Made by a program: the position numbers and the translations under genes. The notes under the pieces were generated by a model. The model saw only the letters and a list, made by a program, of their open reading frames with translations. It had not been told where the DNA came from and did not search any database. Shown here one piece after another: positions 236 through 33,493 of a DNA stretch of 34,907 nucleotides. Numbering within the stretch: the first letter of the stretch is position 1; the number at the start of each line of letters is the position of its first letter. The DNA comes from a virus, in IMG/VR virus record IMGVR_UViG_3300006802_015037, positions 1-34,907 of that record; one strand, written 5' to 3'.

Positions 236-613
236 CTAGCTAGCCTTGCGTGTCGGTTTCTTGCGTGTCGGCTCCACTACTGCGGGGGCTTTCGCAGCTG
301 CTATGGCAGTTTCGACAACAGCCTTGGCCACGTAACGTCCGGGTCCAGCCTTGACGACACGCGCGTCTGGTCGTGACACGTGTCTTTGAAGCTGCGCTGA
401 CAACGTCTGGTGGGGTGTTGCGCCGGTCGTTGTCCAACCGCGTTTTAACGCAGCTGCTACCAGCTGCTTGCAGGACCAAACCGCAGGTTTGCCGGTGCCA
501 TCCACGTCAGACGGTTGTTCTTCCAAGAAGGCTACCACGTGGCTAAGCAGTCCGTCCCCGCCTCGTCCGTTGTTACCCTGCGCGTCGGCCAAGAAACTTG
601 TGTAATCAGTCAT
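236..613 (-). CDS. HARE-HTH-like basic DNA-binding protein
   Basis: 125 residues. The start is the ATG at 613 because a GAGAGAGAG ribosome site directly precedes it; an in-frame ATG 21 codons upstream lacks one. Residues 21-97 resemble the HARE-HTH winged-helix fold: a helical LLSHVVAFL segment, a KQLVAAALKRGW helix, a GATPHQTLSAQL recognition-like segment, then a GPGRYVA strand turn. The C-terminal 25 residues are Ala/Lys/Arg-rich (TRKKPTRK), suiting DNA contact. A clearer HARE-HTH protein lies at 4434-4868 on the other strand. It is the only gene in the left arm on the minus strand, with its own leader (element E) and terminator. A regulatory role is inferred. Confidence 0.65.
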   Translation of the reverse strand: MTDYTSFLADAQGNNGRGGDGLLSHVVAFLEEQPSDVDGTGKPAVWSCKQLVAAALKRGWTTTGATPHQTLSAQLQRHVSRPDARVVKAGPGRYVAKAVVETAIAAAKAPAVVEPTRKKPTRKAS

Positions 614-634: not shown

Positions 635-696
635 CGTTGTGGCGGTGTTTCCCGCCGTCACTACAGTTATCGGCACAACGCAGACGCGACGTTAGC
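635..696 (-). promoter_or_regulatory. Leader element E (diverged, minus strand)
   Basis: Read on the minus strand, it carries GCTAACGT (696-689), eight bases, then CGTTGTGCCGATAA (680-667), matching both flanks of elements A-D but not their palindromic centre. It is followed by a nested hairpin: GGCGG/CCGCC (plus 641-645 with 652-656), with CGTTGTG able to pair with CACAACG (plus 674-680 with 635-641). It lies upstream of the GAGAGAGAG-ATG of the HARE-HTH-like gene. Promoter, operator or RNA leader is not decided by sequence alone. Confidence 0.55.
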
Positions 697-1209: not shown

Positions 1210-1290
1210 CGGTTTGGCTAACGTACGGGCGCCCGTTGTGCCGATAAACATAACGGGCGCCCGTTTTTTGTTGGGCGCCGAACACGAAAC
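1210..1290 (+). promoter_or_regulatory. Leader element A (core plus attenuator hairpin)
   Basis: An 81-bp element nearly identical to element B (two differences). The 26-bp core at 1219-1244 is identical in A, B, C and D. ACGGGCGCCCGTT (1225-1237) pairs with AACGGGCGCCCGT (1252-1264), giving a 13-bp stem, a 14-nt loop holding GTGCCGATAA, and then T's at 1264-1269. That is an intrinsic-terminator shape placed just upstream of a GAGAGAG ribosome site and ATG at 1305. It looks like an attenuator leader, although a promoter plus terminator is equally compatible. Confidence 0.7.
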
Positions 1291-1304
1291 ACAGAAAGAG
1301 AGAG

Positions 1305-1436
1305 ATGAGAAATGGATTCCTTGGAGACTTGGCTGCTTGTGCTTTTGGTTTGTTTCTCGGGCTGGGAATAACGACGCCATTTGCTTACGTGCTTGTTTGG
1401 CATGTCGAGAGACTGAAGGAGATGGTTGTACGATGA
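1305..1436 (+). CDS. Small single-pass membrane protein (copy 1)
   Basis: 43 residues starting at an ATG directly preceded by AAAGAGAGAG. One hydrophobic helix spans about residues 8-33, followed by a basic/amphipathic tail (WHVERLKEMVVR). It is clearly paralogous to the 48-residue protein at 2610-2756: both have GD, a Gly/Leu-rich helix, PFAYV, VWHV and RL in the same order, and both follow the same 81-bp leader. Its stop overlaps the next start (ATGA at 1433). No family recognised; an inner-membrane role, possibly holin-like or superinfection-related, is only a guess. Confidence 0.6.
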   Translation: MRNGFLGDLAACAFGLFLGLGITTPFAYVLVWHVERLKEMVVR

Positions 1437-1636
1437 AACGCTTTAAAGACCTGAAGGTTGGAGAAGTATTCTTCTTCATCGGTGAGCAAATCTATCCGGG
1501 CATCGCTCGTGGGCCGTGGAAGAAGACATCAACTCGGAAGTACGTACACACTTCGACGTTTATGGAATGCCGCGTAGGCTCCATAAACGTCGAAGTGTTC
1601 GGCGGCGAATCAAAAGTCATCAAAGAAGGGGAGTGA
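1433..1636 (+). CDS. Hypothetical small protein
   Basis: 67 residues, ATG at 1433 inside an ATGA overlap with the membrane-peptide gene, with AAGGAG 10 nt upstream. It begins MKRFKDLKVGEVFFF and may fold as a small beta-rich domain (VGEVF, STFMECRVGSINVEVFGG). No recognised family. It is co-transcribed with its neighbours under leader A. Confidence 0.55.
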   Translation: MKRFKDLKVGEVFFFIGEQIYPGIARGPWKKTSTRKYVHTSTFMECRVGSINVEVFGGESKVIKEGE

Positions 1637-1639
1637 GAT

Positions 1640-1969
1640 ATGAGTGCAGTAAGCGAAACCAAGATGGCTATGAACTGGAGCAACGCTTGCATCGGCCAAC
1701 ATATGCGGCCGCAGATCGAGAGGATGATTTACCACGAGGTCGAGCTGAAAGACGGATCGACTGAGATCGTGCCGGCTGACGTGATCGGTATCTACCAAGA
1801 TCCCGTCTTCCCGGAGCGAGTAGAGTCAATAAGCGAGCCGATCAACGGTTGGATCGGGCGAATGGCGGCGCCCGGCTACTTGGACTGCACGGATTGGATT
1901 ACGGGCGAAAGCTACCGGAAGCTTTTGGTCGAGCTGTACCGAATATACGGAGACGACGATATCGCGTAG
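1640..1969 (+). CDS. Hypothetical protein
   Basis: 109 residues with GGGGAG just upstream of the ATG at 1640, three bases after the preceding stop. It is acidic and ends in YGDDDIA. No motif or family is recognised. It is the last gene of the operon led by element A and is followed by a strong terminator hairpin. Confidence 0.55.
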   Translation: MSAVSETKMAMNWSNACIGQHMRPQIERMIYHEVELKDGSTEIVPADVIGIYQDPVFPERVESISEPINGWIGRMAAPGYLDCTDWITGESYRKLLVELYRIYGDDDIA

Positions 1970-2026
1970 AAACGCTCCGAGAGGTTTGGTTTGAAGAGCT
2001 TCTCGGAGATTGACCTCCCGTTTTGG

Positions 2027-2064
2027 GCTGGCCGTAGCGTGCGTTGCGCTGCGGCCGGCTTTTT
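2027..2064 (+). terminator. Terminator-type hairpin with T tract
   Basis: GCTGGCCGTAGCG (2027-2039) pairs with CGCTGCGGCCGGC (2047-2059) over 13 bp with two G-T wobbles and a 7-nt loop, followed by TTTTT (2060-2064). The next gene's ribosome site starts 10 nt later (AAGGAGAGAGAG, ATG 2085), leaving no space for a promoter after it. Confidence 0.75.
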
Positions 2065-2084
2065 GGATTCACAAGGAGAGAGAG

Positions 2085-2465
2085 ATGCCAATTGTTGTTC
2101 GGAAGGGCAATTTATCGGATCCACGTCCGAAACGGTCGGATGCAGTGAAAGACATCGAAAACCTTCGCAAACGAAGAAAGAAAGTCGCGAATCTGGTTCG
2201 AGACATTCGCAAGGGCCACCATGCGAAGGGATTGAAGTCGCGGCATTACACGCTTTACCAGAAGGCGTACTGCCGAAGATTCAAAGACATTTACGAGATC
2301 GAGGGAAGATGCACCGCGGATGATTACTTGTTTCGAAGTGTTGCGATGCGTGAGAAGTTGAAAGCGGAGAACGAGGATGAGAAGAACGACAACCGAATTG
2401 CGTTCTCGCGATATGCGCTAGTCTGGGGAATCTGTTACCAAATTCTGAAGAACGGAGAGATGTGA
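2085..2465 (+). CDS. Hypothetical basic protein
   Basis: 126 residues; the ATG at 2085 is chosen over in-frame upstream starts because AAGGAGAGAGAG precedes it. The N-terminal half is very Lys/Arg-rich (RKRRKKVANLVRDIRKGHH) and the rest is predicted helical (DYLFRSVAMREKLKAENEDEKNDN). Nucleic-acid binding is plausible from charge alone. No family recognised. The frame stays open for 13 codons after the TGA (to 2508). Confidence 0.6.
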   Translation: MPIVVRKGNLSDPRPKRSDAVKDIENLRKRRKKVANLVRDIRKGHHAKGLKSRHYTLYQKAYCRRFKDIYEIEGRCTADDYLFRSVAMREKLKAENEDEKNDNRIAFSRYALVWGICYQILKNGEM

Positions 2466-2510
2466 GATGACGAACTGAAACAGCTTTACGAGATGTTCGA
2501 GGAATAGTTT

Positions 2511-2591
2511 CGGTTTGGCTAACGTACGGGCGCCCGTTGTGCCGATAAGCATAACGGTCGCCCGTTTTTTGTTGGGCGCCGAACACGAAAC
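2511..2591 (+). promoter_or_regulatory. Leader element B (core plus attenuator hairpin)
   Basis: An 81-bp near-copy of element A. The core is at 2520-2545. The left arm 2526-2538 pairs with 2553-2565 (one mismatch, T at 2558), then T's to 2570. It precedes the second copy of the small membrane-protein gene (ATG 2610), so leader and gene were duplicated together. Confidence 0.7.
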
Positions 2592-2609
2592 CAAGACGGG
2601 AGATGAGAG

Positions 2610-2756
2610 ATGCGAGAATTCACACGACGCGAATTGCTTGGCGATGCGCTCGCTTTGCTGACCGGCCTGCTGATGGGGTTGGGAATTGTTGCACCGTTTG
2701 CTTACGTGATCGTTTGGCACGTACAGCGGCTTCAGGAAATTGCAGTAGGAGGTTAG
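2610..2756 (+). CDS. Small single-pass membrane protein (copy 2)
   Basis: 48 residues beginning MREFTRRELLGDALALL, with a hydrophobic helix at about residues 9-36 and the conserved PFAYVIVWHV tail seen also in the protein at 1305-1436. GGGAGATGAGAG precedes the ATG. A basic N-terminus before the helix suggests N-in topology. The next gene begins 5 nt after its stop, and that gene's ribosome site (GGAGG) lies within this gene's last codons. Function unknown. Confidence 0.6.
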   Translation: MREFTRRELLGDALALLTGLLMGLGIVAPFAYVIVWHVQRLQEIAVGG

Positions 2757-2760
2757 AGAT

Positions 2761-2970
2761 ATGGACCCGAATGCAACACTTAAAGAGATTCTGCGTGAGT
2801 TCACAAACTGGGACGACCGCGATGAAGACCGATGCCTTGAGCTGGCCAAAGCATTGCAGGATTGGCTGGAGGGCGGCGGATTTTGCCCGGATTTAAACTC
2901 GCTCGACATGACCGGCCAGCGAGTGCTGGTGCTTTTTGCAACGCAACATATTCGGAGCATGTGCGAATGA
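2761..2970 (+). CDS. Hypothetical small acidic protein
   Basis: 69 residues with AGGAGG upstream (2747-2752) of the ATG at 2761. Predicted helical (LKEILREFTNW, RCLELAKALQDWLEGG). The stop overlaps the next start (ATGA at 2967). No family recognised. Confidence 0.55.
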   Translation: MDPNATLKEILREFTNWDDRDEDRCLELAKALQDWLEGGGFCPDLNSLDMTGQRVLVLFATQHIRSMCE

Positions 2971-3221
2971 CTCTTGTTTCTGATTACTCATTTACTCTCA
3001 GATTGGAGGAAGCAGTGGTGACAGTTATCGAAGGCGAAGAGAATGTCAGGAATGCCCGAATCCTTGCCCTAAAGTGTGCATTGAGCCTTGAGCTTAAAGG
3101 GATGAAACGACGCGGCCGATCGGCCTACGCGATCGTCAAGGATGAGTTCGGATTCAAGGGATCAAAACAGAAGGTGTATGACCAGCTGTGCGAATGGGTA
3201 AAGAAGCACCTGTTTTCTTAG
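2967..3221 (+). CDS. Hypothetical protein
   Basis: 84 residues, ATG within the ATGA overlap with the preceding gene. The C-terminal two thirds are basic and helical (LKGMKRRGRSAYAIVKDEFGFKG, then QKVYDQLCEWVKKHL), which could be a small DNA-binding domain, but no family is recognised. It is the last gene before leader C. Confidence 0.55.
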   Translation: MTLVSDYSFTLRLEEAVVTVIEGEENVRNARILALKCALSLELKGMKRRGRSAYAIVKDEFGFKGSKQKVYDQLCEWVKKHLFS

Positions 3222-3241
3222 ATTTTCCGGTTTCTCGTCCG

Positions 3242-3318
3242 TTTTGACTAACGTACGGGCGCCCGTTGTGCCGAAACAGAACGTAGGGGCGCGCGTTGTG
3301 CCTCTATGTTCTGTTTTT
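3242..3318 (+). promoter_or_regulatory. Leader element C (core plus different hairpin)
   Basis: The 26-bp core at 3249-3274 is identical to A, B and D. The sequence after it has diverged but still forms a terminator-like hairpin: 3274-3285 pairs with 3305-3316 over 12 bp (one G-T), followed by T's to 3318. GGGCGCCCGTTGTGCC is also repeated imperfectly as GGGCGCGCGTTGTGCC. It precedes GGGAGG and the ATG at 3339. A changed sequence with kept structure favours function as RNA. Confidence 0.65.
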
Positions 3319-3338
3319 AATTTACGGGAGGCACAAAG

Positions 3339-4085
3339 ATGTCAGATAGCCGGGAAAAGATTGTCGAAAGGTTCAAAAACGAAAAGACACGTATCCCGCC
3401 GGTGATTCGCTCGATCGTACGGATGTACCTAGAAGACCACTCGCTGTACGACGCGACGACATTTTCGCGTTTTCTGGACGAGTACGCGAAACTGTTAGCG
3501 GTGTGCTTTGATGAAAAGGGAGGCGGTTGGAATCACCCGATGTTTGGCCGATTCGTCCGTCGCGTAAAAGTTGCTATGGAGTCCAGCTTCCCAGACATGC
3601 TTTCGCCCGAGCAATTCAGTTCTGACGAAGACCTTTTTCAAGATCTTCACATGAGTACGTTGTTAGCGTATGTCTCCGCTGTTCCACATTTCAACATGCG
3701 ATCAGATGGGGCATGCCCGTTGAAAACAAACTACTTTCAAATCTCGTTTCAGCAAGAAGTGTCTGAATGTGGCGCATTGGCGTTTGTGATGCACGCGATG
3801 TGGGACTGTGTCGCAGCGAGCTACTTTGATGAGCCGATATGGGGAACGACCGAACGCAAAACACCGGCGCTTCGCCGGCATATGTACTGGTTTCGCCGGT
3901 TGTTCATGGCAACGATCGCCAACAGCTTGATGGAGCCGTCTAACGCAACAGAAATCTTCGACTGGGATTACATGATTTTTCAGGGCTACAATCACGCGAG
4001 ACAACTTGCTGCTCGTGCGTTCGGTAAAGATTGGACTCAAACCTGTCATGAAAACTCTGCAATTTGGAACCCAGATCGCCACTAA
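3339..4085 (+). CDS. Hypothetical protein, 248 residues
   Basis: The ATG at 3339 has a good ribosome site (ACGGGAGG, 8 nt). It is a soluble mixed helical protein without signal peptide or membrane segment. Trp and Phe are frequent (FDWDYMIFQGYNHARQLAARAF). No motif or family recognised. It is a single-gene unit between leader C and a strong terminator at 4102-4139, so it is probably expressed separately from the small-gene operons. Confidence 0.65.
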   Translation: MSDSREKIVERFKNEKTRIPPVIRSIVRMYLEDHSLYDATTFSRFLDEYAKLLAVCFDEKGGGWNHPMFGRFVRRVKVAMESSFPDMLSPEQFSSDEDLFQDLHMSTLLAYVSAVPHFNMRSDGACPLKTNYFQISFQQEVSECGALAFVMHAMWDCVAASYFDEPIWGTTERKTPALRRHMYWFRRLFMATIANSLMEPSNATEIFDWDYMIFQGYNHARQLAARAFGKDWTQTCHENSAIWNPDRH

Positions 4086-4101
4086 AGCCTGATCAGCCCA
4101 C

Positions 4102-4139
4102 GCCCGCCATCGGTTGACCATCGGTGGCGGGCTTTTTTT
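4102..4139 (+). terminator. Intrinsic terminator
   Basis: GCCCGCCA (4102-4109) pairs with TGGCGGGC (4125-4132), directly followed by TTTTTTT (4133-4139). It lies 17 nt after the stop of the 248-residue gene. The loop holds a second short pairing (CGG/CCA region). Confidence 0.85.
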
Positions 4140-4337
4140 GATCTTTAAGCATCAGTCAATCTCCGGCAGTTTTGGCCGCGTGTTGGCTACAGTCGGCCTT
4201 CGCGTGAAACGCCCGTGAAACGTCGCACACGTCCCTCCGGCCGTTCCGACGACGTTCCGGCCGCGTTCACACGTGAACGCGTTACGGGCGTCAAATACGG
4301 GCGTGTATCGCGTCCGTTTTTTCTTTGTTGTTTTGGA
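4140..4337. other. Gene-free GC-rich spacer with operator-like palindrome
   Basis: No credible coding sequence lies between 4086 and 4433. The spacer has a near-palindrome GCGTTCAC-AC-GTGAACGC (4263-4280), a direct repeat CGTGAAACG (starting near 4203 and 4213), and repeated ACGGGCGT words that echo the arm of elements A-D. It leads into element D. The palindrome looks like a repressor operator; no partner is known. Confidence 0.45.
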
Positions 4338-4413
4338 CGGTTTGGCTAACGTACGGGCGCCCGTTGTGCCGATAAGAGTACGTGTGCACCCGTTGTGGGC
4401 GCGCTGTTCTTTT
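4338..4413 (+). promoter_or_regulatory. Leader element D (core plus weak hairpin)
   Basis: Upstream sequence and core (4347-4372) match element A from GTTTTGGACGGTTTGG onwards. The following hairpin differs: GTGCACCC (4384-4391) with GGGCGCGC (4397-4404), one mismatch and one wobble, then TGTTCTTTT. It precedes a GGGAGAG ribosome site and the ATG at 4434 of the HARE-HTH gene. Confidence 0.65.
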
Positions 4414-4433: not shown

Positions 4434-4868
4434 ATGCCAAAAGAGCGCAAGCTGCACTGGTATGCGGAAGGGATGACAAACTCGACGTTATGCGGTCGAG
4501 CCGGCCAAGTCGCCGATGACAAAGACGGGGTCACCTGTATGCGATGCCAAGCAAAGCTCAAGCAGATGGTTATTGATTTGGAAGATTCTTACGATGAAGA
4601 AGATGAAGCCGAGGAGTCGATCGAAGAAAAGTCAATCGGCGAAAACCGATGGGGTTTGCTTGACTACGCGGTAGACGCGATTTCTGCGAGTGGCGAACCT
4701 ATGCGATGCAAAGACATTGCTGAGTACGCCAAGGCCAACGGATGGGAAGGCAATGGCAAGACGCCTGCAAACACCCTGAACGCTGCGATCAACAAAGAAA
4801 TTCAGGTCAAAGGATCTGAGTCTCGATTCAAGCGAGCTGGCAGGGGATTGTACGACATCACATCGTAG
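4434..4868 (+). CDS. Zinc-ribbon-like plus HARE-HTH protein
   Basis: 144 residues. The N-terminus (1-45) has TLCGR and CMRC (Cys20, Cys35, Cys38) and an HWY start, as in small phage metal-binding modules. An acidic linker (50-67) follows. Residues 72-143 match the HARE-HTH domain well: GLLDYAVDAISASGEPM, KDIAEYAKANGW, GKTPANTLNAAIN, then RFKRAGRGLYDI. HARE-HTH domains are known from DNA-modification-linked proteins and ASXL/RpoE-delta-like factors. It lies just upstream of the phage methyltransferase, which fits a DNA or modification-related role (inference). Confidence 0.75.
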   Translation: MPKERKLHWYAEGMTNSTLCGRAGQVADDKDGVTCMRCQAKLKQMVIDLEDSYDEEDEAEESIEEKSIGENRWGLLDYAVDAISASGEPMRCKDIAEYAKANGWEGNGKTPANTLNAAINKEIQVKGSESRFKRAGRGLYDITS

Positions 4869-4918: not shown

Positions 4919-4928
4919 TTCTTGATAT

Positions 4929-4968
4929 TCTCTGTACGAATAAATTTTGCAAATCATTTTTACAGAGA
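4929..4968 (+). promoter_or_regulatory. Inverted repeat overlapping the methyltransferase ribosome site
   Basis: TCTCTGTA (4929-4936) is complementary to TACAGAGA (4961-4968), which forms the start of the GA-rich ribosome site before the ATG at 4976. The loop is AT-rich (24 nt). Pairing could hide part of the ribosome site and limit translation. This is the only GA-rich leader here with an obvious anti-sequence. Confidence 0.4.
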
Positions 4969-4975
4969 GAGAGAG

Positions 4976-6196
4976 ATGACAACTCAACGAAAGCCCCGCG
5001 CATCGAAGTCGCTTGCTGTATTTGATGTAGCTCTGGACAAGGTTGTCCCATACGATCGAAATCCAAGAAACAACGAGGCAGCTGTCGATAAAGTCTGCGA
5101 ATCAATCCAGAAATTCGGATTTCGCCAGCCGATCGTGGTTGATGGTGATTTTGTAATCATTGCCGGACACACACGATGGCAGGCGGCGAATAAGTTAAAG
5201 CTGAAAAGTGTTCCCGTTCATGTGGCGGATATCACTGAGTCGCAGGCAAAAGAGTACCGCCTCGCTGACAATAAAACGGCTGAGTATTCGACATGGGACT
5301 TTGATGCTCTCGCTGTCGAGCTGGCCGAGCTGGAGCAGATGGACGTTGAGACGGATTGGCTGGAGTTCGAACTTCCAGATGAGCCGGCACCAGATAACGC
5401 GAATGAAATTGAAGCGAATGAAATTGACGAAGCTGTCCCTGATTTGAAAAGCGAATCAATTTCGGAACCGGGGCAGCTCATCAAGCTGGGCCGCCATCGG
5501 CTGATGTGTGCTGACAGTGGAAACGGAGACGCTTGGGATGCCCTGATGCAGGGTGAGAAAGCGAATCTATTGTTGACGGATCCGCCTTACGGCGTTGCAT
5601 ACGTCGGCAAGACCGAAAAAGCCCTGACCATCGAAAACGATGAGATGCACGGCGAAGACTTCCGCCAGTGGCTTAATGTTCCTTTTGCAAATGCTTTTTC
5701 CGTCATGGCTCCCGGTTCGTCGTATTACATCTGGCACGCTCATACGGAATCCTACGCATTCCAAGGCATGTTGCTAGATAACGGCGTCGATCTTCGCCAG
5801 TGCCTCGTGTGGGTGAAAGATACGATGGTCATGGGCCGGCAAGATTACCAATGGCAGCACGAGCCGTGTCTGTATGGCTGGACTGCCGGCGAGGCACATA
5901 CATGGAACAGCGACCGAAGCCAAGTGACGACGCTCCGCTTTGATCGACCTACGAGATCAACGCAGCATCCAACAATGAAGCCAACGGAGCTTTTCAGCTA
6001 CCTCATGCACAACTCAAGTGATGCGGGCCAGATCGTTGTCGATCCGTTTCTTGGGTCAGGGACAACGCTTCTGTCGGCTGAGAGGCTCGGCCGAACTTGC
6101 TACGGAATTGAGCTTGATCCTAAATACTGCGATGTCATCGTAGAACGGTGGGAGAACTACACGGGCCAGAAAGCTGAGCGCACCGAATGTCTGTAA
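4976..6196 (+). CDS. ParB-like nuclease domain / DNA methyltransferase fusion
   Basis: 406 residues; the ATG at 4976 follows GAGAGAGAGAG. Residues about 15-110 are a ParB/Srx-type domain (YDRNPRNN, FGFRQPIVVDG, IIAGHTRWQAA). Residues about 165-400 are an amino-methyltransferase: catalytic motif IV DPPY (202-205), HPTMKP (331-336) and AdoMet-binding DPFLGSGTT (356-364). The order (IV before I) is that of beta-class N6-adenine/N4-cytosine enzymes. The full catalytic set is present. Such phage ParB-methylases modify phage DNA, probably against host restriction; the target sequence cannot be read. Its end overlaps the next gene by 10 nt. Confidence 0.9.
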   Translation: MTTQRKPRASKSLAVFDVALDKVVPYDRNPRNNEAAVDKVCESIQKFGFRQPIVVDGDFVIIAGHTRWQAANKLKLKSVPVHVADITESQAKEYRLADNKTAEYSTWDFDALAVELAELEQMDVETDWLEFELPDEPAPDNANEIEANEIDEAVPDLKSESISEPGQLIKLGRHRLMCADSGNGDAWDALMQGEKANLLLTDPPYGVAYVGKTEKALTIENDEMHGEDFRQWLNVPFANAFSVMAPGSSYYIWHAHTESYAFQGMLLDNGVDLRQCLVWVKDTMVMGRQDYQWQHEPCLYGWTAGEAHTWNSDRSQVTTLRFDRPTRSTQHPTMKPTELFSYLMHNSSDAGQIVVDPFLGSGTTLLSAERLGRTCYGIELDPKYCDVIVERWENYTGQKAERTECL

Positions 6197-23592: not shown

Positions 23593-23648
23593 ACGCGCCT
23601 GTATAAAGGGCGCCGCACGGGTTCGAAAAACGGCCGAGAACGGTTCAA

Positions 23649-23734
23649 GTTGACAGGGACGGCGTGCCGATAGTAGAAGGGGCAACCGCCGCACACGCGG
23701 CACCTACGGCCACCCACAACGAAAGGAGGCAGGC
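23649..23734 (+). promoter_or_regulatory. csrA leader (diverged leader element)
   Basis: TTGACA (23649-23654) is a good -35-like hexamer. GTGCCGATA (23664-23672), a GCCGC-ACAC-GCGGC hairpin and CACAACGAAA (23715-23724) follow. GTGCCGATA and CACAACGAAA also occur in that order in the minus-strand element E. The leader ends in AAAGGAGG, a near-perfect ribosome site, 5 nt before GTG 23735. Confidence 0.45.
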
Positions 23735-23953
23735 GTGCTAGTCCTCGGCCGACGAAAAGACGAAGGGGTCGTTATCGAGACGCCACAAGGCAAGATACAG
23801 ATTTTGATCGCCCGCATAGGTGTTGACCAAGTCCGTATCGGAATTGAGGCACCTAACGAGTTTAAGATACTACGCAACGAGATCGCATACTACGGCGTGC
23901 TAGATGCGATACCTGAACCGAGTCCGACTCTCAAAGTGGTTTCGGACGATTGA
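23735..23953 (+). CDS. csrA: Carbon storage regulator CsrA/RsmA
   Basis: 72 residues from a GTG with AAAGGAGG 5 nt upstream. The full CsrA fold is visible: MLVLGRRKDEGVVIE, IQILIARIGVDQVRIGIEAP, then ILRNEI. The RNA-binding residues known in the family are present (Arg6 in the first strand and the late Arg in ILRNE). The C-terminal tail (PEPSPTLKVVSDD) is longer than minimal CsrA. CsrA binds GGA motifs in leaders of mRNAs. It stands alone between two terminators. A target set in phage or host is not visible but is discussed in the findings. Confidence 0.92.
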   Translation: MLVLGRRKDEGVVIETPQGKIQILIARIGVDQVRIGIEAPNEFKILRNEIAYYGVLDAIPEPSPTLKVVSDD

Positions 23954-23956
23954 CGT

Positions 23957-23979
23957 AAGTCGGCACAGCCGGCTTTTTT
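23957..23979 (+). terminator. Terminator hairpin after csrA
   Basis: AAGTCGG (23957-23963) pairs with CCGGCTT (23969-23975; one G-T), followed by TTTTTT (23974-23979). The next ATG is only 18 nt beyond, preceded by GGGAGAGAGAG. Confidence 0.7.
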
Positions 23980-24506: not shown

Positions 24507-24535
24507 GCGGGCGAGCGTTCTGCTCGCCCGCTTTT
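24507..24535 (+). terminator. Terminator hairpin
   Basis: GCGGGCGAGC (24507-24516) pairs perfectly with GCTCGCCCGC (24522-24531), loop GTTCT, then TTTT. The next gene's GA-rich ribosome site begins 5-10 nt later and its ATG is at 24560. Confidence 0.85.
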
Positions 24536-24559
24536 CAAACAGAAGAAAGAGAGAGAGAG

Positions 24560-26379: not shown

Positions 26380-26591
26380 AGTGCTGTATATGCAACCAAG
26401 AAACCCCTAAAGAGCAAATCCACGTTCAAGATGCAGTGGTTGGCGAAAATCACACTTCTCAAATCATTTATGTATATTGTAGGACTTGCGTAAAGACACA
26501 TCGGGAATCGCAGTTTGATCCTGCGTTTCCTCATCGCGAAGACTTCAGTGTGCCGAAAGCGAGATATGGACTTCGAGAGTCTGAGGGATAA
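26376..26591 (+). CDS. Small zinc-finger protein
   Basis: 71 residues, ATG in an ATGA overlap. MKCCICNQET near the start and YCRTCVKTH at 34-42 form a CxxC...CxxC site. Overlaps the start of the resolvase gene by 26 nt. No specific family recognised. Confidence 0.6.
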   Translation: MKCCICNQETPKEQIHVQDAVVGENHTSQIIYVYCRTCVKTHRESQFDPAFPHREDFSVPKARYGLRESEG

Positions 26592-27069
26592 GACGCGAGG
26601 CATGTACGAAACGGAGGCTGTGGTTGTCCTGACGATACCACAGCCTCCTTCAGTTAATGCCCTGTATGTCGGAAAGCGCGGGGGCGGAAAACGATTGAGC
26701 AACGCTGGCCGCAAGTTCTACACGCATATTTCGAAAGGATGCAAACAGCTTGGAATTAGCGAGCTTAAGCTGGTCGGGAACCTTCGGATTGAGATTCTTG
26801 CTTATCCGTCCAGCTACATGTTTGACACGGCCAACTTCTTAAAAGCAACGCTTGATGCGCTTGAGAAGGGCGGAGTAGTTGCAAACGACAGGAGCTTTCG
26901 CTCGGTCGACATTACACATGTTGACATTGACAAAGAACGACCGCGGCTTGAGTTGCGTATTTTTGAAAAAACGGCGGTCGCGTCCTCAAGTCCGTTGTCC
27001 ACCGTGCCGATAACAGGTAACAGGGGAGACGCCGGGCGTGCCGGCGGCCGGAAACGGTCACCCGTTTGA
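26566..27069 (+). CDS. RusA-like Holliday junction resolvase
   Basis: 167 residues, starting at the ATG at 26566 inside the previous gene. RusA pattern: IPQPPSVNALY (24-34), a helical middle, then FDTANFLKATLDALEKGGVVANDRSF (given in parts: FDTAN at 86-90, LKATLDAL at 92-99, NDRS at 107-110). Asp87 and Asp108 fit the first and last metal ligands; the family's middle Asp (D-x-D-N) is Ala89 here. Resolves recombination or replication junctions before packaging. The last 30 residues (after RIFEK) are low-complexity and may be leader sequence read through. Confidence 0.8.
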   Translation: MDFESLRDKTRGMYETEAVVVLTIPQPPSVNALYVGKRGGGKRLSNAGRKFYTHISKGCKQLGISELKLVGNLRIEILAYPSSYMFDTANFLKATLDALEKGGVVANDRSFRSVDITHVDIDKERPRLELRIFEKTAVASSSPLSTVPITGNRGDAGRAGGRKRSPV

Positions 27070-27090: not shown

Positions 27091-27813
27091 ATGAGAGAAG
27101 TCACCAAGGGGCGACAGCAAAAGCCCCGCAGGGTCATGATCTACGGCGTCGGAGGCGTCGGCAAGTCGACGCTTGCGGCTTCATTTCCAAAACCGCTTTT
27201 CATTGACTTGGAGCACGGCCTCAAGAATATCGACACTCACAGCGTGCAAGTCGAAGACTACCTCGACTTCATGAGTATGTGCGAGGAGCTTTACGACGAT
27301 CACGACTACCGGACGATCGTCGTCGACGCGGCTGACCAGCTGCAACAGTTCGCAGACGCACAGGTTGCAATGCACGCTGGAGTCTCGACTGCAAAACAGG
27401 TGGATTGGGGCAAGGGTATTGACGAGATGGTCCACCTCTTCAACGCTTCGCTCAGTGCCCTCGCTGCGTTGCAGCAACAACGCAACGTGATGATCGTTTT
27501 GATCGCACACGCGGAGGTGAGCCAGTTCAAGGATCCACGGCTTGAGCCGTACGATCGATACCGGCCTCGCCTTCACAAAGACTTGATCGACCCGACTGTT
27601 GAGTGGTGCGACGAAGTTCTGTTCATGAACTACGTTCAAAGCCAAAAAGAAGTCAAGCAGTCACGCGGGAAGACGATCAAGACAACTGCAACAGGCGACC
27701 GGCAGATTTACACTGCCGAAGCGCCAGCTTGGATCGCCAAAAATCGGTGCGGGATGCCCGACGTTATTGAACCGACTTGGGACAGCTACAAGCAGTACGC
27801 TTTTTCCGAGTAA
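27091..27813 (+). CDS. Sak4-like RecA-fold ATPase
   Basis: 240 residues with GGGAGAGAGA before the ATG. Walker A GVGGVGKST (19-27), Walker B TIVVDAAD (75-82). The rest follows the AAA_24 phage nucleotide-binding family: DLEHGLKNID, DYLDFMSMCEEL, a WGKGIDEM helix, MIVLIAHAEV. Such proteins act with an SSB-like partner in phage recombination. The next gene encodes that partner (DUF669), which supports a Sak4-type single-strand annealing role. Start of the replication module. Confidence 0.85.
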   Translation: MREVTKGRQQKPRRVMIYGVGGVGKSTLAASFPKPLFIDLEHGLKNIDTHSVQVEDYLDFMSMCEELYDDHDYRTIVVDAADQLQQFADAQVAMHAGVSTAKQVDWGKGIDEMVHLFNASLSALAALQQQRNVMIVLIAHAEVSQFKDPRLEPYDRYRPRLHKDLIDPTVEWCDEVLFMNYVQSQKEVKQSRGKTIKTTATGDRQIYTAEAPAWIAKNRCGMPDVIEPTWDSYKQYAFSE

Positions 27814-28390: not shown

Positions 28391-28418
28391 GGCGGGGGGC
28401 TTTGGCCTCCCGCCTTTT
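28391..28418 (+). terminator. Terminator hairpin before the helicase gene
   Basis: GGCGGGGGGC (28391-28400) pairs with GCCTCCCGCC (28405-28414; one wobble), loop TTTG, then TTTT (28415-28418). The helicase ribosome site (GAGGGAGAG) is about 10 nt further on and the ATG is at 28442. Confidence 0.75.
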
Positions 28419-30186: not shown

Positions 30187-33100
30187 ATGTTAAAGTCAAA
30201 GATAACTCCTGTCAATTGCTGGGAAGCTTACTCAGAGATTCTGGCTGACAAGGTCTATCGCTACGCTTTCGCCAACGACGTGATCCCGGTCTACCGACAC
30301 GGTGGCTACGCACCGGAGCGATTCGAGGGCGTCACCGACATAGGCGAACGGCGGCGTTTGTTTCGCTCCGTCCTGCTACGTCACTTTAAGGGGCGTTGCT
30401 GCGGCCTGTACCTGCTTGGCGAGGCACCTGACGGCGAGTGTTACGGCCGGTTCCTGTGCTTCGATATCGACGCCAAGCCCGACACGGTACTCGATCACCC
30501 GACACTTCCCCAGTTGAACCTCGAAGCGGCTTGCCAGATCCAAGACATTCTAAAACGGCACGCGGTCAACAGTGTAATTGAGATGTCTGGCCCGAGCGGA
30601 TCGTATCACGTTTGGGCTTTTTTCGATGGGCCGGTGCCCGGCGAAATTCTGTATGGCGTAGCGAAGTACATTGCTTCGCGTGTTGACCGAGCACAGGGAC
30701 GCACGACTGCCAACAAACAGCAGATCGAGGTTTATCCACGGTCTGGGAAGCTGAAGGGCAAGAAAAAAACTGGGAGCCTCATCCGGCTGCCCGGAAAGTA
30801 CAAGGATGTTGACTGGTGGAGCCGATTCGTTGATAGCGACGGAGTCTTTGTGGGCGAAGAGCGCGGGATCCAGTTGTTCATTGAAACGCTCGAAGATCCG
30901 AACCCATTATCCGCGGTCAGCCGCGAGACGACGTTAGTTCTTTCTGCTCTCAAAGAGTTCCCAACCGTTGACATGCGGACAGGAGATCCGATTCCCACAC
31001 CGGAAGACGAGCCAGACTGGTTGCGAGAGATACCGATGCTGGAGCGGTTTGAACGCTGCCAGCAGGCCCATCTGGACAACTACGAAACCGGAGCATGGGA
31101 AAAGCCGGGGCAGGGAGTCCGGCATACGTGGCTCTACAAAGCGGCCATGCAGGCGTGCGTGAACTACGCGATGCTTGATAGCAGTTTGGCGAGGCAATTT
31201 CTTGAGTGGTGGGACAAAGAATTCTGTCAGGGGGAGAATACGAAGGACGACCCCGATCGGCAGATCGCCGACGCCATAGACAACGCGATCGCCGGGCGTG
31301 GGACGAACCAGATCGGCTACGCGTTGATGCCGGAGAACCTTAAGCCACGATTCCCGATCAAGCTATACCTTCATTTGAACGGCAAGCACACGCTCGAAGA
31401 ACTGCGGCAGGTGGCCCATCGGGACGTGCTGTCTGTTGTGAAGTACCCAGACGTACATAAAGGCGTGTGGCTGAACTCGGCGCCGCCGTCGATTGGGAAG
31501 ACGGAGGCTTTCCTGAAGGCGGCTTCCGCGTCCGAAGCTCCTGTGGTGATATCGACGACGACGCACAGCCAAGCAGCGGAGATCGTTCAACGGGCCTACG
31601 GTATCGATCTGTTTTATTCGATTGACAAGTTTCCCAAGCTGACGGTGCTGGGACACTGCGGCGCCGGCGAGAAGCCGAACTGCCACCATCCGCCGATGGC
31701 CGAGGCCGAACAGCTGGGGCTGTCGAAGTTCTACTGCTACGACGGGCACGGCGGATGCCCACACTTCGCCAAGTGCCAAGAAACGTCTGGCATGTACCTG
31801 CACGACTTTGAGCAGGTAAAGGAGATGCGGGTACACGTCTGCACGACGCAGCGTCTGGCACTGCAGGGGTTCGACAAAATAGCCAGCACACGGCTGATGA
31901 GCGGCAAGAAACAGCTTCCCGTGGTGATCATTGACGAGTCACCGGAAGCTGCGTTCAACCCCGTTGTGAGATACACGCTGGTTGAACTTGCACAGGTGCG
32001 AGACTGCTGCGAAGTGGCGATAGCCGACATGGTAAAGCAGCAACGGCTGCACGGATACGACTTCGACGCACCGATCGATTTTCTGCGGATCCTGACGCAA
32101 CACATCGCGGATTGGTTGACGGCCGAAACAAATACCGTTGTCGATCTAGTCCACGTCGTCAGTTCCAAGATTGCTGCTCACACACGCGTGCAGGTGCAGG
32201 GATTCCGACGCACAGCCGCACGGTTTATGATTGACGCGATAGCAGAACGAAAACGGCTGCTTGGCGACGACTGGCAGCCGGTCAACCTTTTTACGCTCTT
32301 GAAACTTTGCGGGCTTCACCCTGCAGATATCGACGATTCAAGATTTCTGAGCGTGTTCAAAGGCGAAAGCGGCGTTCAGATTAACCTGTCAAACGTCGTG
32401 AACCCGGAACAGACTATCCTTTGCACAGACGCGTCCAGCACCCCCGCCACGTTGTCACGCGTCATAGGAAGGGACGTTAGCACCAAAGGCGACAGAGGCC
32501 GTCCCGCGGTCAAAACGCCGGCGATACAGTGGGCGGTCGATAGTGGCCGAAACGGGCGGTCGAAGGAGCGGATGCTTCAACGGTTGAACGGACTGCTCCT
32601 GAACGTAAACGCGCTTGGCTTGTCGCAAAAAGAAATAGGCACGATTGGCCTGATAACGCACCAAACGATTGCGAAGGAAGTTGATGAGCACATTCACCCG
32701 GTCCTGCGGCCGAAGATCCAGATGCTGGATTGGTTCGGCGGCAGCACGACTCGCGGATCCAACGCGTGGACGTCGATGGACCTGCTGATTGTCTGTGCGA
32801 CCTACCGAATGCCCGTCGAGTGTGTCCGAGAGCGACTTGCGTATTCAGACCCCGGCGCGTTGCAGTTCAGCGACCCCAGCTTTGTCGAGATGGTCTGGCA
32901 ACCGACAGCCGGCCAAAAGAAGCGCATCAGCTTTTGGGGGCCGGACCCGAACACTGAGATCGGTGAGGAACAAGTTCGAATGATTCGAGCGGAACTGGAA
33001 CAGTGCCTGCACCGATCCAGAATGTATCTTGAGAACGGAATTCCAGTTTTACTGCTGTCAAAGTACCCGAGTGACTTGCCTGTCTGGGAGCGTATCGAGG

Positions 33101-33327
33101 AAATGCCCAAAGCCGGCAACTACGTTCGAATGACAAAGAACGTCGGCGCGGTTCTGGATGCCCTCGCGGCTGAAGGAGGTAGTGTACAGAGTGACGTACT
33201 TTCGAAGTTGACAGGGATGAAGTTACGGGGCGTGCAGGCCCTGCTGAAGAAGCTTGAAAAGGTTGGATTAGTGTCGAGTTGGGAGCGCGGACACGGCCAT
33301 TTGAGTTGGTCACTGAAAAAAAGCTAG
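30187..33327 (+). CDS. AEP primase fused to XPD/DinG-like helicase
   Basis: 1046 residues; AAAGG upstream of the ATG. N-terminal archaeo-eukaryotic primase: FDID metal site (92-95), SGSYHVW with His141, EVYP (181-184) and SLIRLPG (197-203). Then a P-loop ATPase: APPSIGKT (432-439) and Walker B VVIIDE (579-584). Between them lie Cys491, 499, 517, 524 and 530 with CPHFAKC, the site where XPD/DinG helicases hold an FeS cluster (zinc is possible). Later, GSTTRGSNAW followed by DLLIVCATYR resembles late helicase motifs. The C-terminus (about 985-1046) is a winged-helix-like domain. Likely the replicative primase-helicase; TOTE-type primases are the nearest known relatives of the first domain. Confidence 0.8.
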   Translation: MLKSKITPVNCWEAYSEILADKVYRYAFANDVIPVYRHGGYAPERFEGVTDIGERRRLFRSVLLRHFKGRCCGLYLLGEAPDGECYGRFLCFDIDAKPDTVLDHPTLPQLNLEAACQIQDILKRHAVNSVIEMSGPSGSYHVWAFFDGPVPGEILYGVAKYIASRVDRAQGRTTANKQQIEVYPRSGKLKGKKKTGSLIRLPGKYKDVDWWSRFVDSDGVFVGEERGIQLFIETLEDPNPLSAVSRETTLVLSALKEFPTVDMRTGDPIPTPEDEPDWLREIPMLERFERCQQAHLDNYETGAWEKPGQGVRHTWLYKAAMQACVNYAMLDSSLARQFLEWWDKEFCQGENTKDDPDRQIADAIDNAIAGRGTNQIGYALMPENLKPRFPIKLYLHLNGKHTLEELRQVAHRDVLSVVKYPDVHKGVWLNSAPPSIGKTEAFLKAASASEAPVVISTTTHSQAAEIVQRAYGIDLFYSIDKFPKLTVLGHCGAGEKPNCHHPPMAEAEQLGLSKFYCYDGHGGCPHFAKCQETSGMYLHDFEQVKEMRVHVCTTQRLALQGFDKIASTRLMSGKKQLPVVIIDESPEAAFNPVVRYTLVELAQVRDCCEVAIADMVKQQRLHGYDFDAPIDFLRILTQHIADWLTAETNTVVDLVHVVSSKIAAHTRVQVQGFRRTAARFMIDAIAERKRLLGDDWQPVNLFTLLKLCGLHPADIDDSRFLSVFKGESGVQINLSNVVNPEQTILCTDASSTPATLSRVIGRDVSTKGDRGRPAVKTPAIQWAVDSGRNGRSKERMLQRLNGLLLNVNALGLSQKEIGTIGLITHQTIAKEVDEHIHPVLRPKIQMLDWFGGSTTRGSNAWTSMDLLIVCATYRMPVECVRERLAYSDPGALQFSDPSFVEMVWQPTAGQKKRISFWGPDPNTEIGEEQVRMIRAELEQCLHRSRMYLENGIPVLLLSKYPSDLPVWERIEEMPKAGNYVRMTKNVGAVLDALAAEGGSVQSDVLSKLTGMKLRGVQALLKKLEKVGLVSSWERGHGHLSWSLKKS

Positions 33328-33364
33328 AAAGAGAAAAAATAAACGTACACTATCAATATGCTGA

Positions 33365-33426
33365 ACTTTGTTCACCAGTCAGAAGCAAAATAGTGAACAA
33401 AGTGGTGTAAACAAATAGTGGACAAA
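33365..33426. repeat. AT-rich short repeats (possible origin)
   Basis: ACTTTGTTCAC (33365-33375) is an 11-bp inverted repeat of GTGAACAAAGT (33393-33403). TAGTGAACAAA (33391), a related GTGTAAACAAA (33405) and TAGTGGACAAA (33416) form three direct copies about 12 bp apart. Together with AT-richness and position right after the primase-helicase gene, this resembles initiator binding repeats. Confidence 0.5.
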
Positions 33427-33429
33427 TCT

Positions 33430-33493
33430 TAAGCGCGGCGCACGAACCCTTTAGAGCTATCTCTTTATTTATAGGGTTCGTGCGCCGCGCTTA
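33430..33493. repeat. 21-bp perfect inverted repeat
   Basis: The arm at 33430-33450 (starts TAAGCGCGGCGCACGAACCC) is perfectly complementary to 33473-33493, with a 22-nt AT-rich spacer containing TTTATTTAT. It is the longest perfect inverted repeat noted in the window. As RNA it would be a very stable hairpin (no T run follows, so it is not a plain intrinsic terminator); as DNA it could be a cruciform, origin or resolution site. Confidence 0.9.

Follow-up and report, generated by a model that had tools for sequence, protein, structure and literature searches.

Repeated elements in a phage genome are probable sigma-28-type promoters with palindromic spacers and predicted nested read-through terminators

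What is the function of a short sequence that stands unchanged ahead of four genes of one phage? The 34,907-base virus record analysed here, referred to below as the window, contains four identical forward copies of a 27-bp core, CTAACGTACGGGCGCCCGTTGTGCCGA, at 1218-1244 (A), 2519-2545 (B), 3248-3274 (C) and 4346-4372 (D). A first-pass annotation had noted 26 identical base pairs at these places and proposed an RNA element controlling read-through, a riboswitch-like attenuator or an RNA like that of the HK022 put sites, with a promoter core as the alternative. The identity holds and extends over 27 nt. We consider it probable that the repeats constitute a family of sigma-28/FliA-type promoters, whose spacer is palindromic and may be regulatory and in which a read-through terminator would be nested, and not a leader RNA.

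The extent of conservation was determined by aligning A-D with a diverged minus-strand copy, M (667-696), which retains GCTAACGT and GCGTTGTGCCGATAA as originally annotated; its spacer differs and its boxes are kept. The five copies are conserved through the end of the GCCGATAA box and have almost nothing in common beyond it, and the 16-bp spacer of A-D is invariant. The motif GTGCCGATAG/A, also reported earlier, is present before both csrA (23664) and the RecA-fold gene sak4 (27004). With at most one mismatch, GTGCCGATAA occurs seven times in the 34,907 bases compared with 1.8 expected, a number reached in none of 100 shuffles. The csrA and sak4 sites also bear a -35-like box, TTCAAG with a gap of 16 bp and CTCAAG with a gap of 15 bp, respectively. 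At all seven sites a start codon lies 53-77 nt past the end of the box, and A-D are all oriented, 57-61 nt ahead of their start codons. A and B are near-identical over 86 nt; at the DNA level their leaders are 95% identical and the genes behind them, which encode two small paralogous membrane-type proteins, 71%.

The capsid provided an indication of the host. Viral contigs contain 71 relatives of the capsid-protease protein, and capsid homologues at E<=1e-60 were detected in 37 of 392 Planctomycetota genomes and in 0 of 249 Pseudomonadota genomes, pointing to Planctomycetota as the host phylum. We collected, independently of the phage, 85 upstream regions of Planctomycetota flagellin genes, a training set that represents the phylum, and a weight matrix seeded with the textbook sigma-28 consensus was refined on these regions. 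The refined matrix reads CTCAAG/CTAAAG-N14/15-GCCGATAA, with gaps of 14 (30), 15 (17), 16 (5) and 13 bp (1). An unbiased count of every 5-mer/gap/5-mer dyad with the coding ends trimmed placed TAAAG-N16-CGATA joint top with its one-base-shifted twin CTAAA-N17-CGATA; without trimming, the flagellin coding start dominated the result. CT[AC]AAG-N14-15-NCGA[AT] was present in the sense orientation in 12 of the 85 regions and in the antisense orientation in 3, compared with 0.16 in shuffles. Genome-wide, CTMAAG-N14-15-GCCGATA gave 185 matches versus 68 for the reversed motif (summed by eye), which is weak evidence, as coding sequence can bias the count.

When the window was scored with the flagellin matrix, the sak4 site ranked first and the csrA site second. 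The sak4/replication-operon site (26985-27013, plus strand; CTCAAG-N15-GCCGATAA; ATG at 27091, 77 nt on) scored 21.0 and overlaps the 3' end of a RusA-like ORF (26515-27069), and the csrA site (23644-23673, plus strand; TTCAAG-N16-GCCGATAG; GTG start at 23735, 61 nt on) scored 16.8. Four elements tied at 14.1, within the top nine: A (1218-1247, plus strand), with CTAACG at 1218-1223, the 16-bp spacer, GCCGATAA at 1240-1247 and ATG 1305 57 nt on; B (2519-2548, plus strand; CTAACG-N16-GCCGATAA; ATG 2610, 61 nt on); D (4346-4375, plus strand; CTAACG-N16-GCCGATAA; ATG 4434, 58 nt on); and M (667-695, minus strand; CTAACG-N15-GCCGATAA), which precedes a HARE-HTH gene (613-236). Element C (3248-3277, plus strand; ATG 3339, 61 nt on) had the lowest score of the seven, 10.4, because in its CTAACG-N16-GCCGAAAC layout the -10 box is a variant. 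Nine matches scored at least 14, compared with 0.74 in shuffles and a maximum of 4 in 100 shuffles, and no match at this threshold was obtained with the reversed motif or the reversed window. Three of the nine were at gap 15 and six at gap 16, with no more than one match at any other gap; three sit in coding DNA and are probably chance. No sigma-70-like promoter was called at A-D, M, csrA or sak4. These results suggest that the boxes act as double-stranded DNA, with CTAACG (or T/CTCAAG) as the -35 and GCCGATAA as the -10, 15-16 bp apart, that the sigma factor reading them would be sigma-28, and that transcription would start about 6 nt past GCCGATAA.

The elements resemble sigma-28 (FliA/SigD) flagellar promoters in their -10 box, in the fixed gap, in their place before genes and, at sak4 and nearly at csrA, in a CTMAAG-like -35. 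Box variants like those of the phage occur among mapped E. coli FliA sites, which include TAACG (ynjH, the -35 type of A-D and M), TCAA (modA), GCCGATAG (flxA) and GCCGAAAA (tsr) (PMC4183435). A FliA-type promoter is also found near csrA in the flagellin-regulating csrA-tldR loci (PMC13418256); in the phage, unlike those loci, no TldR or flagellin gene was found, and the promoter class serves phage operons. The phage elements differ from flagellar promoters in serving early, regulatory and replication genes rather than flagella, in a gap 1-2 bp longer than in the E. coli layout, and in the CTAACG of A-D and M; the gaps of 15-16 bp also exceed most flagellin gaps (14-15 bp).

These differences leave some room for a promoter that resembles flagellin promoters only in part and depends on something other than sigma-28: a different sigma factor, such as an alternative sigma of the host whose -10 is like GCCGATAA, or a regulator specific to the phage, such as an activator bound to the palindrome described below. 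CTAACG, which differs from the consensus at a nearly invariant position, was found in 0 of the 85 flagellin upstream regions, and across 149 Planctomycetota genomes the CTAACG promoter form was not enriched (15 matches versus about 40 for the reversed control, summed by eye). The invariant 16-bp spacer of A-D also exceeds the needs of a sigma site. We regard this explanation as rather unlikely, however, given that the two best sites of the window by a matrix built on flagellin genes are those of csrA and sak4, with CTCAAG at sak4 fitting the CTMAAG-like -35 and TTCAAG at csrA nearly so, and that no sigma factor gene was found among the ORFs scanned in the window, a record that may be incomplete. 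Sigma-28 sites were not enriched in about 70 related phage contigs and prophage loci (7 matches versus 6.7), and thus the sigma-28 reading rests on one phage. Host-wide use of the exact core was considered and rejected, with 2 matches in 392 Planctomycetota genomes versus 4 for the reversed control.

The spacer of A-D contains a perfect 12-bp palindrome, ACGGGCGCCCGT, at 1225-1236 (A), 2526-2537 (B), 3255-3266 (C) and 4353-4364 (D), a putative regulator site. With at most two mismatches it occurs eight times compared with 1.6 expected, and eight was reached in 0 of 100 shuffles. A second copy lies 28-30 bp downstream as a direct repeat at the predicted start site (A, 1253-1264; B, 2554-2565; C, 3285-3296; D, about 4382-4393) and decays from A, where it is exact, through B, where it is almost so, to the degenerate versions of C and D. 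The direct-repeat identities of 22 positions in A, B, C and D are 14, 13, 20 and 12, at shifts of 28, 28, 30 and 29 (shuffle P 0.0005, 0.016, 0 and 0.05). This arrangement has the look of a tandem operator and could let a regulator govern all four rightward units together. Repressed early promoters of phages with tandem operators likewise have a palindrome inside the promoter, a second copy over the start site and several co-oriented promoters. They differ from the present case, in which the operator role is putative, no repressor gene was identified and the promoters match the flagellar class instead of sigma-70.

Any palindrome repeated in the same orientation automatically yields an inverted repeat; selection on the RNA is thus not required to explain the hairpins of A and B, and RNA arriving from upstream would fold across both promoters. 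The first-pass annotation had placed a terminator-like hairpin after each copy. In A, the core pairs with the downstream copy to form a hairpin of 16 pairs (1225-1264) with T6 (feature 1225-1270, plus strand), which only upstream-derived RNA would form. The corresponding hairpin across B (2526-2571, plus strand) has one unpaired position, a mismatch relative to A with no compensating change, and is located about 60 bp past the preceding gene, whose stop is at 2465. In C, a nearly perfect hairpin of 20 pairs (3274-3316) with a T tract (3274-3321, plus strand) is independent of core pairing and lies about 52 bp past the preceding gene, whose stop is at 3221. The read-through folds have z scores of -5.6 (A), -3.9 (B) and -5.8 (C), unlike that of D, which is weak (-0.9; post-start fold -0.25; neither significant) and was not called as a terminator by the scan; D is situated behind a separate intrinsic terminator of 13 pairs, 9 of them G-C, with T7 (about 4102-4139, plus strand), which follows the 248-aa gene. 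The annotated hairpins thus stand at A-C, including the use of the core itself in A and B and the altered arm of C, and fall away at D, and the notion of changed sequence with conserved structure fails for D, with A/B and C using different arms. A has a read-through hairpin, yet no forward gene lies upstream of it.

The hairpins at A-C are better explained as stopping upstream transcription than as attenuating the transcript that the element itself starts. A transcript beginning at the predicted start, past the -10 box, would lack the 5' arm in A and B and partly in C, and would escape termination, while upstream RNA would be terminated across A and B, and at C by its own hairpin. Each of A-C would therefore close one unit and open the following one, which, if true, makes a compact unit out of a single stretch of DNA.

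The originally proposed leader RNA requires instead that RNA from upstream of the core folds as a terminator or antiterminator. In its favour, A, B and C each have a strong hairpin and a T tract separating the promoter region from the gene, as attenuators and HK022 put leaders do, and in C the hairpin segment TTGTGCCTC could base-pair with GAGGCACAA, which lies at the ribosome site. It is very unlikely, in our judgement, on several grounds. Conservation lies upstream of the predicted RNA, ending at the -10-like box, and there is no conserved alternative fold; three of the seven sites (M, csrA and sak4) keep the boxes with no terminator hairpin; the hairpin of D is not significant; and the A-to-B stem change is uncompensated. 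No promoter-like site was found upstream of the A-D cores in a scan that covers the sigma-70-like type alone. Rfam gave no match at the gathering threshold and one unrelated chance match at E 2.7. The RNAalifold covariation term over the four copies was just -0.12 kcal/mol, a comparison of low power within one phage. A covariance-model search, which had been suggested as a check, recovered only the four input copies from about 0.7 Mb of related phage DNA (38 sources). Scans of viral contigs gave either nothing or isolated matches, almost all of them within long open frames, and no homologous element precedes the HARE-HTH gene in related phages. Five matches in the genome collection, including an acidobacterial one inside a coding frame and one from a Phycisphaerae MAG with an rpoD-like gene close by, were taken as chance. 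Neither viral contigs nor the 392 Planctomycetota genomes yielded a homologous element, so the covariation test has little power and its negative outcome is no disproof. The promoter core, formerly the alternative, is thus favoured, and the sequence points to a known class and not to a phage-only one.

Least probable is that the palindromes lie before genes only incidentally and serve in protein binding or as partition/origin-type sites, with the ParB-domain protein encoded at 4922-6196 as one possible ligand: repeated 12-bp palindromes do lie near that gene, but every copy is oriented 57-61 nt before a start codon, M, csrA and sak4 share the two boxes with A-D and not the palindrome, and the ParB-N domain belongs to a fusion protein with a DNA methylase domain, not to a partition locus. 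Nor does the core seem to fit the form of an integron attC site.

If the repeats are sigma-28-type promoters, the seven sites would start non-structural units, namely a HARE-HTH gene, small early genes, a second HARE-HTH gene, csrA and the Sak4/SSB/helicase/primase operon, and the phage would seem to have modelled its promoters on those of host flagellar genes. Planctomycetota have motile and sessile cell types, and few of their phages have been studied. A tentative extension, which we consider possible but doubtful, is that the host flagellar sigma factor controls the early, csrA and replication programme. Infection would then be largely confined to motile planctomycete cells, and the phage CsrA would in turn act on flagellar translation. 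If right, the sigma-28 reading would tie the developmental programme of a phage to a cell-type-specific sigma factor of its host in Planctomycetota.

Several further features of the record were observed. Terminator-like hairpins with T tracts but no core occur just ahead of the ribosome site of the next co-directional gene at 2025-2061, 23957-23975, about 24507-24536 and 28391-28414 (genes at 2085, 23998, 24560 and 28442), and the hairpin habit is therefore separable from the core. Related phages show similar layouts. In element C (3292-3338), the complementarity between TTGTGCCTC and GAGGCACAA extends over 9 nt, and the ribosome site concerned is that of the 248-aa gene. A role of 5'-terminal leader hairpins as mRNA stabilisers was rejected as not specific: the pooled z was about -4.8 for seven leaders, but several control leaders were equally strong.

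The two HARE-HTH proteins (236-613, minus strand; 4434-4868, plus strand) are both encoded behind a promoter element; one has an apparent zinc ribbon, and the second has homologues in 18 related contigs. The 1046-aa protein encoded at 30187-33327 contains an AEP-TOTE-type primase domain and had no match in 50,697 phage records. Behind its gene are long inverted repeats at 33430-33493 (24 nt, 96%) and 33345-33423 (31 nt, 71%), a candidate origin or terminator. A perfect 19-bp inverted repeat with a 13-nt loop lies within an open frame at 1548-1598, and the non-coding left end (1-140 and 830-900) contains clustered repeats of the CGCGCGAAGC type and of CGCGCGCTAACCTTT, a 15-bp unit.
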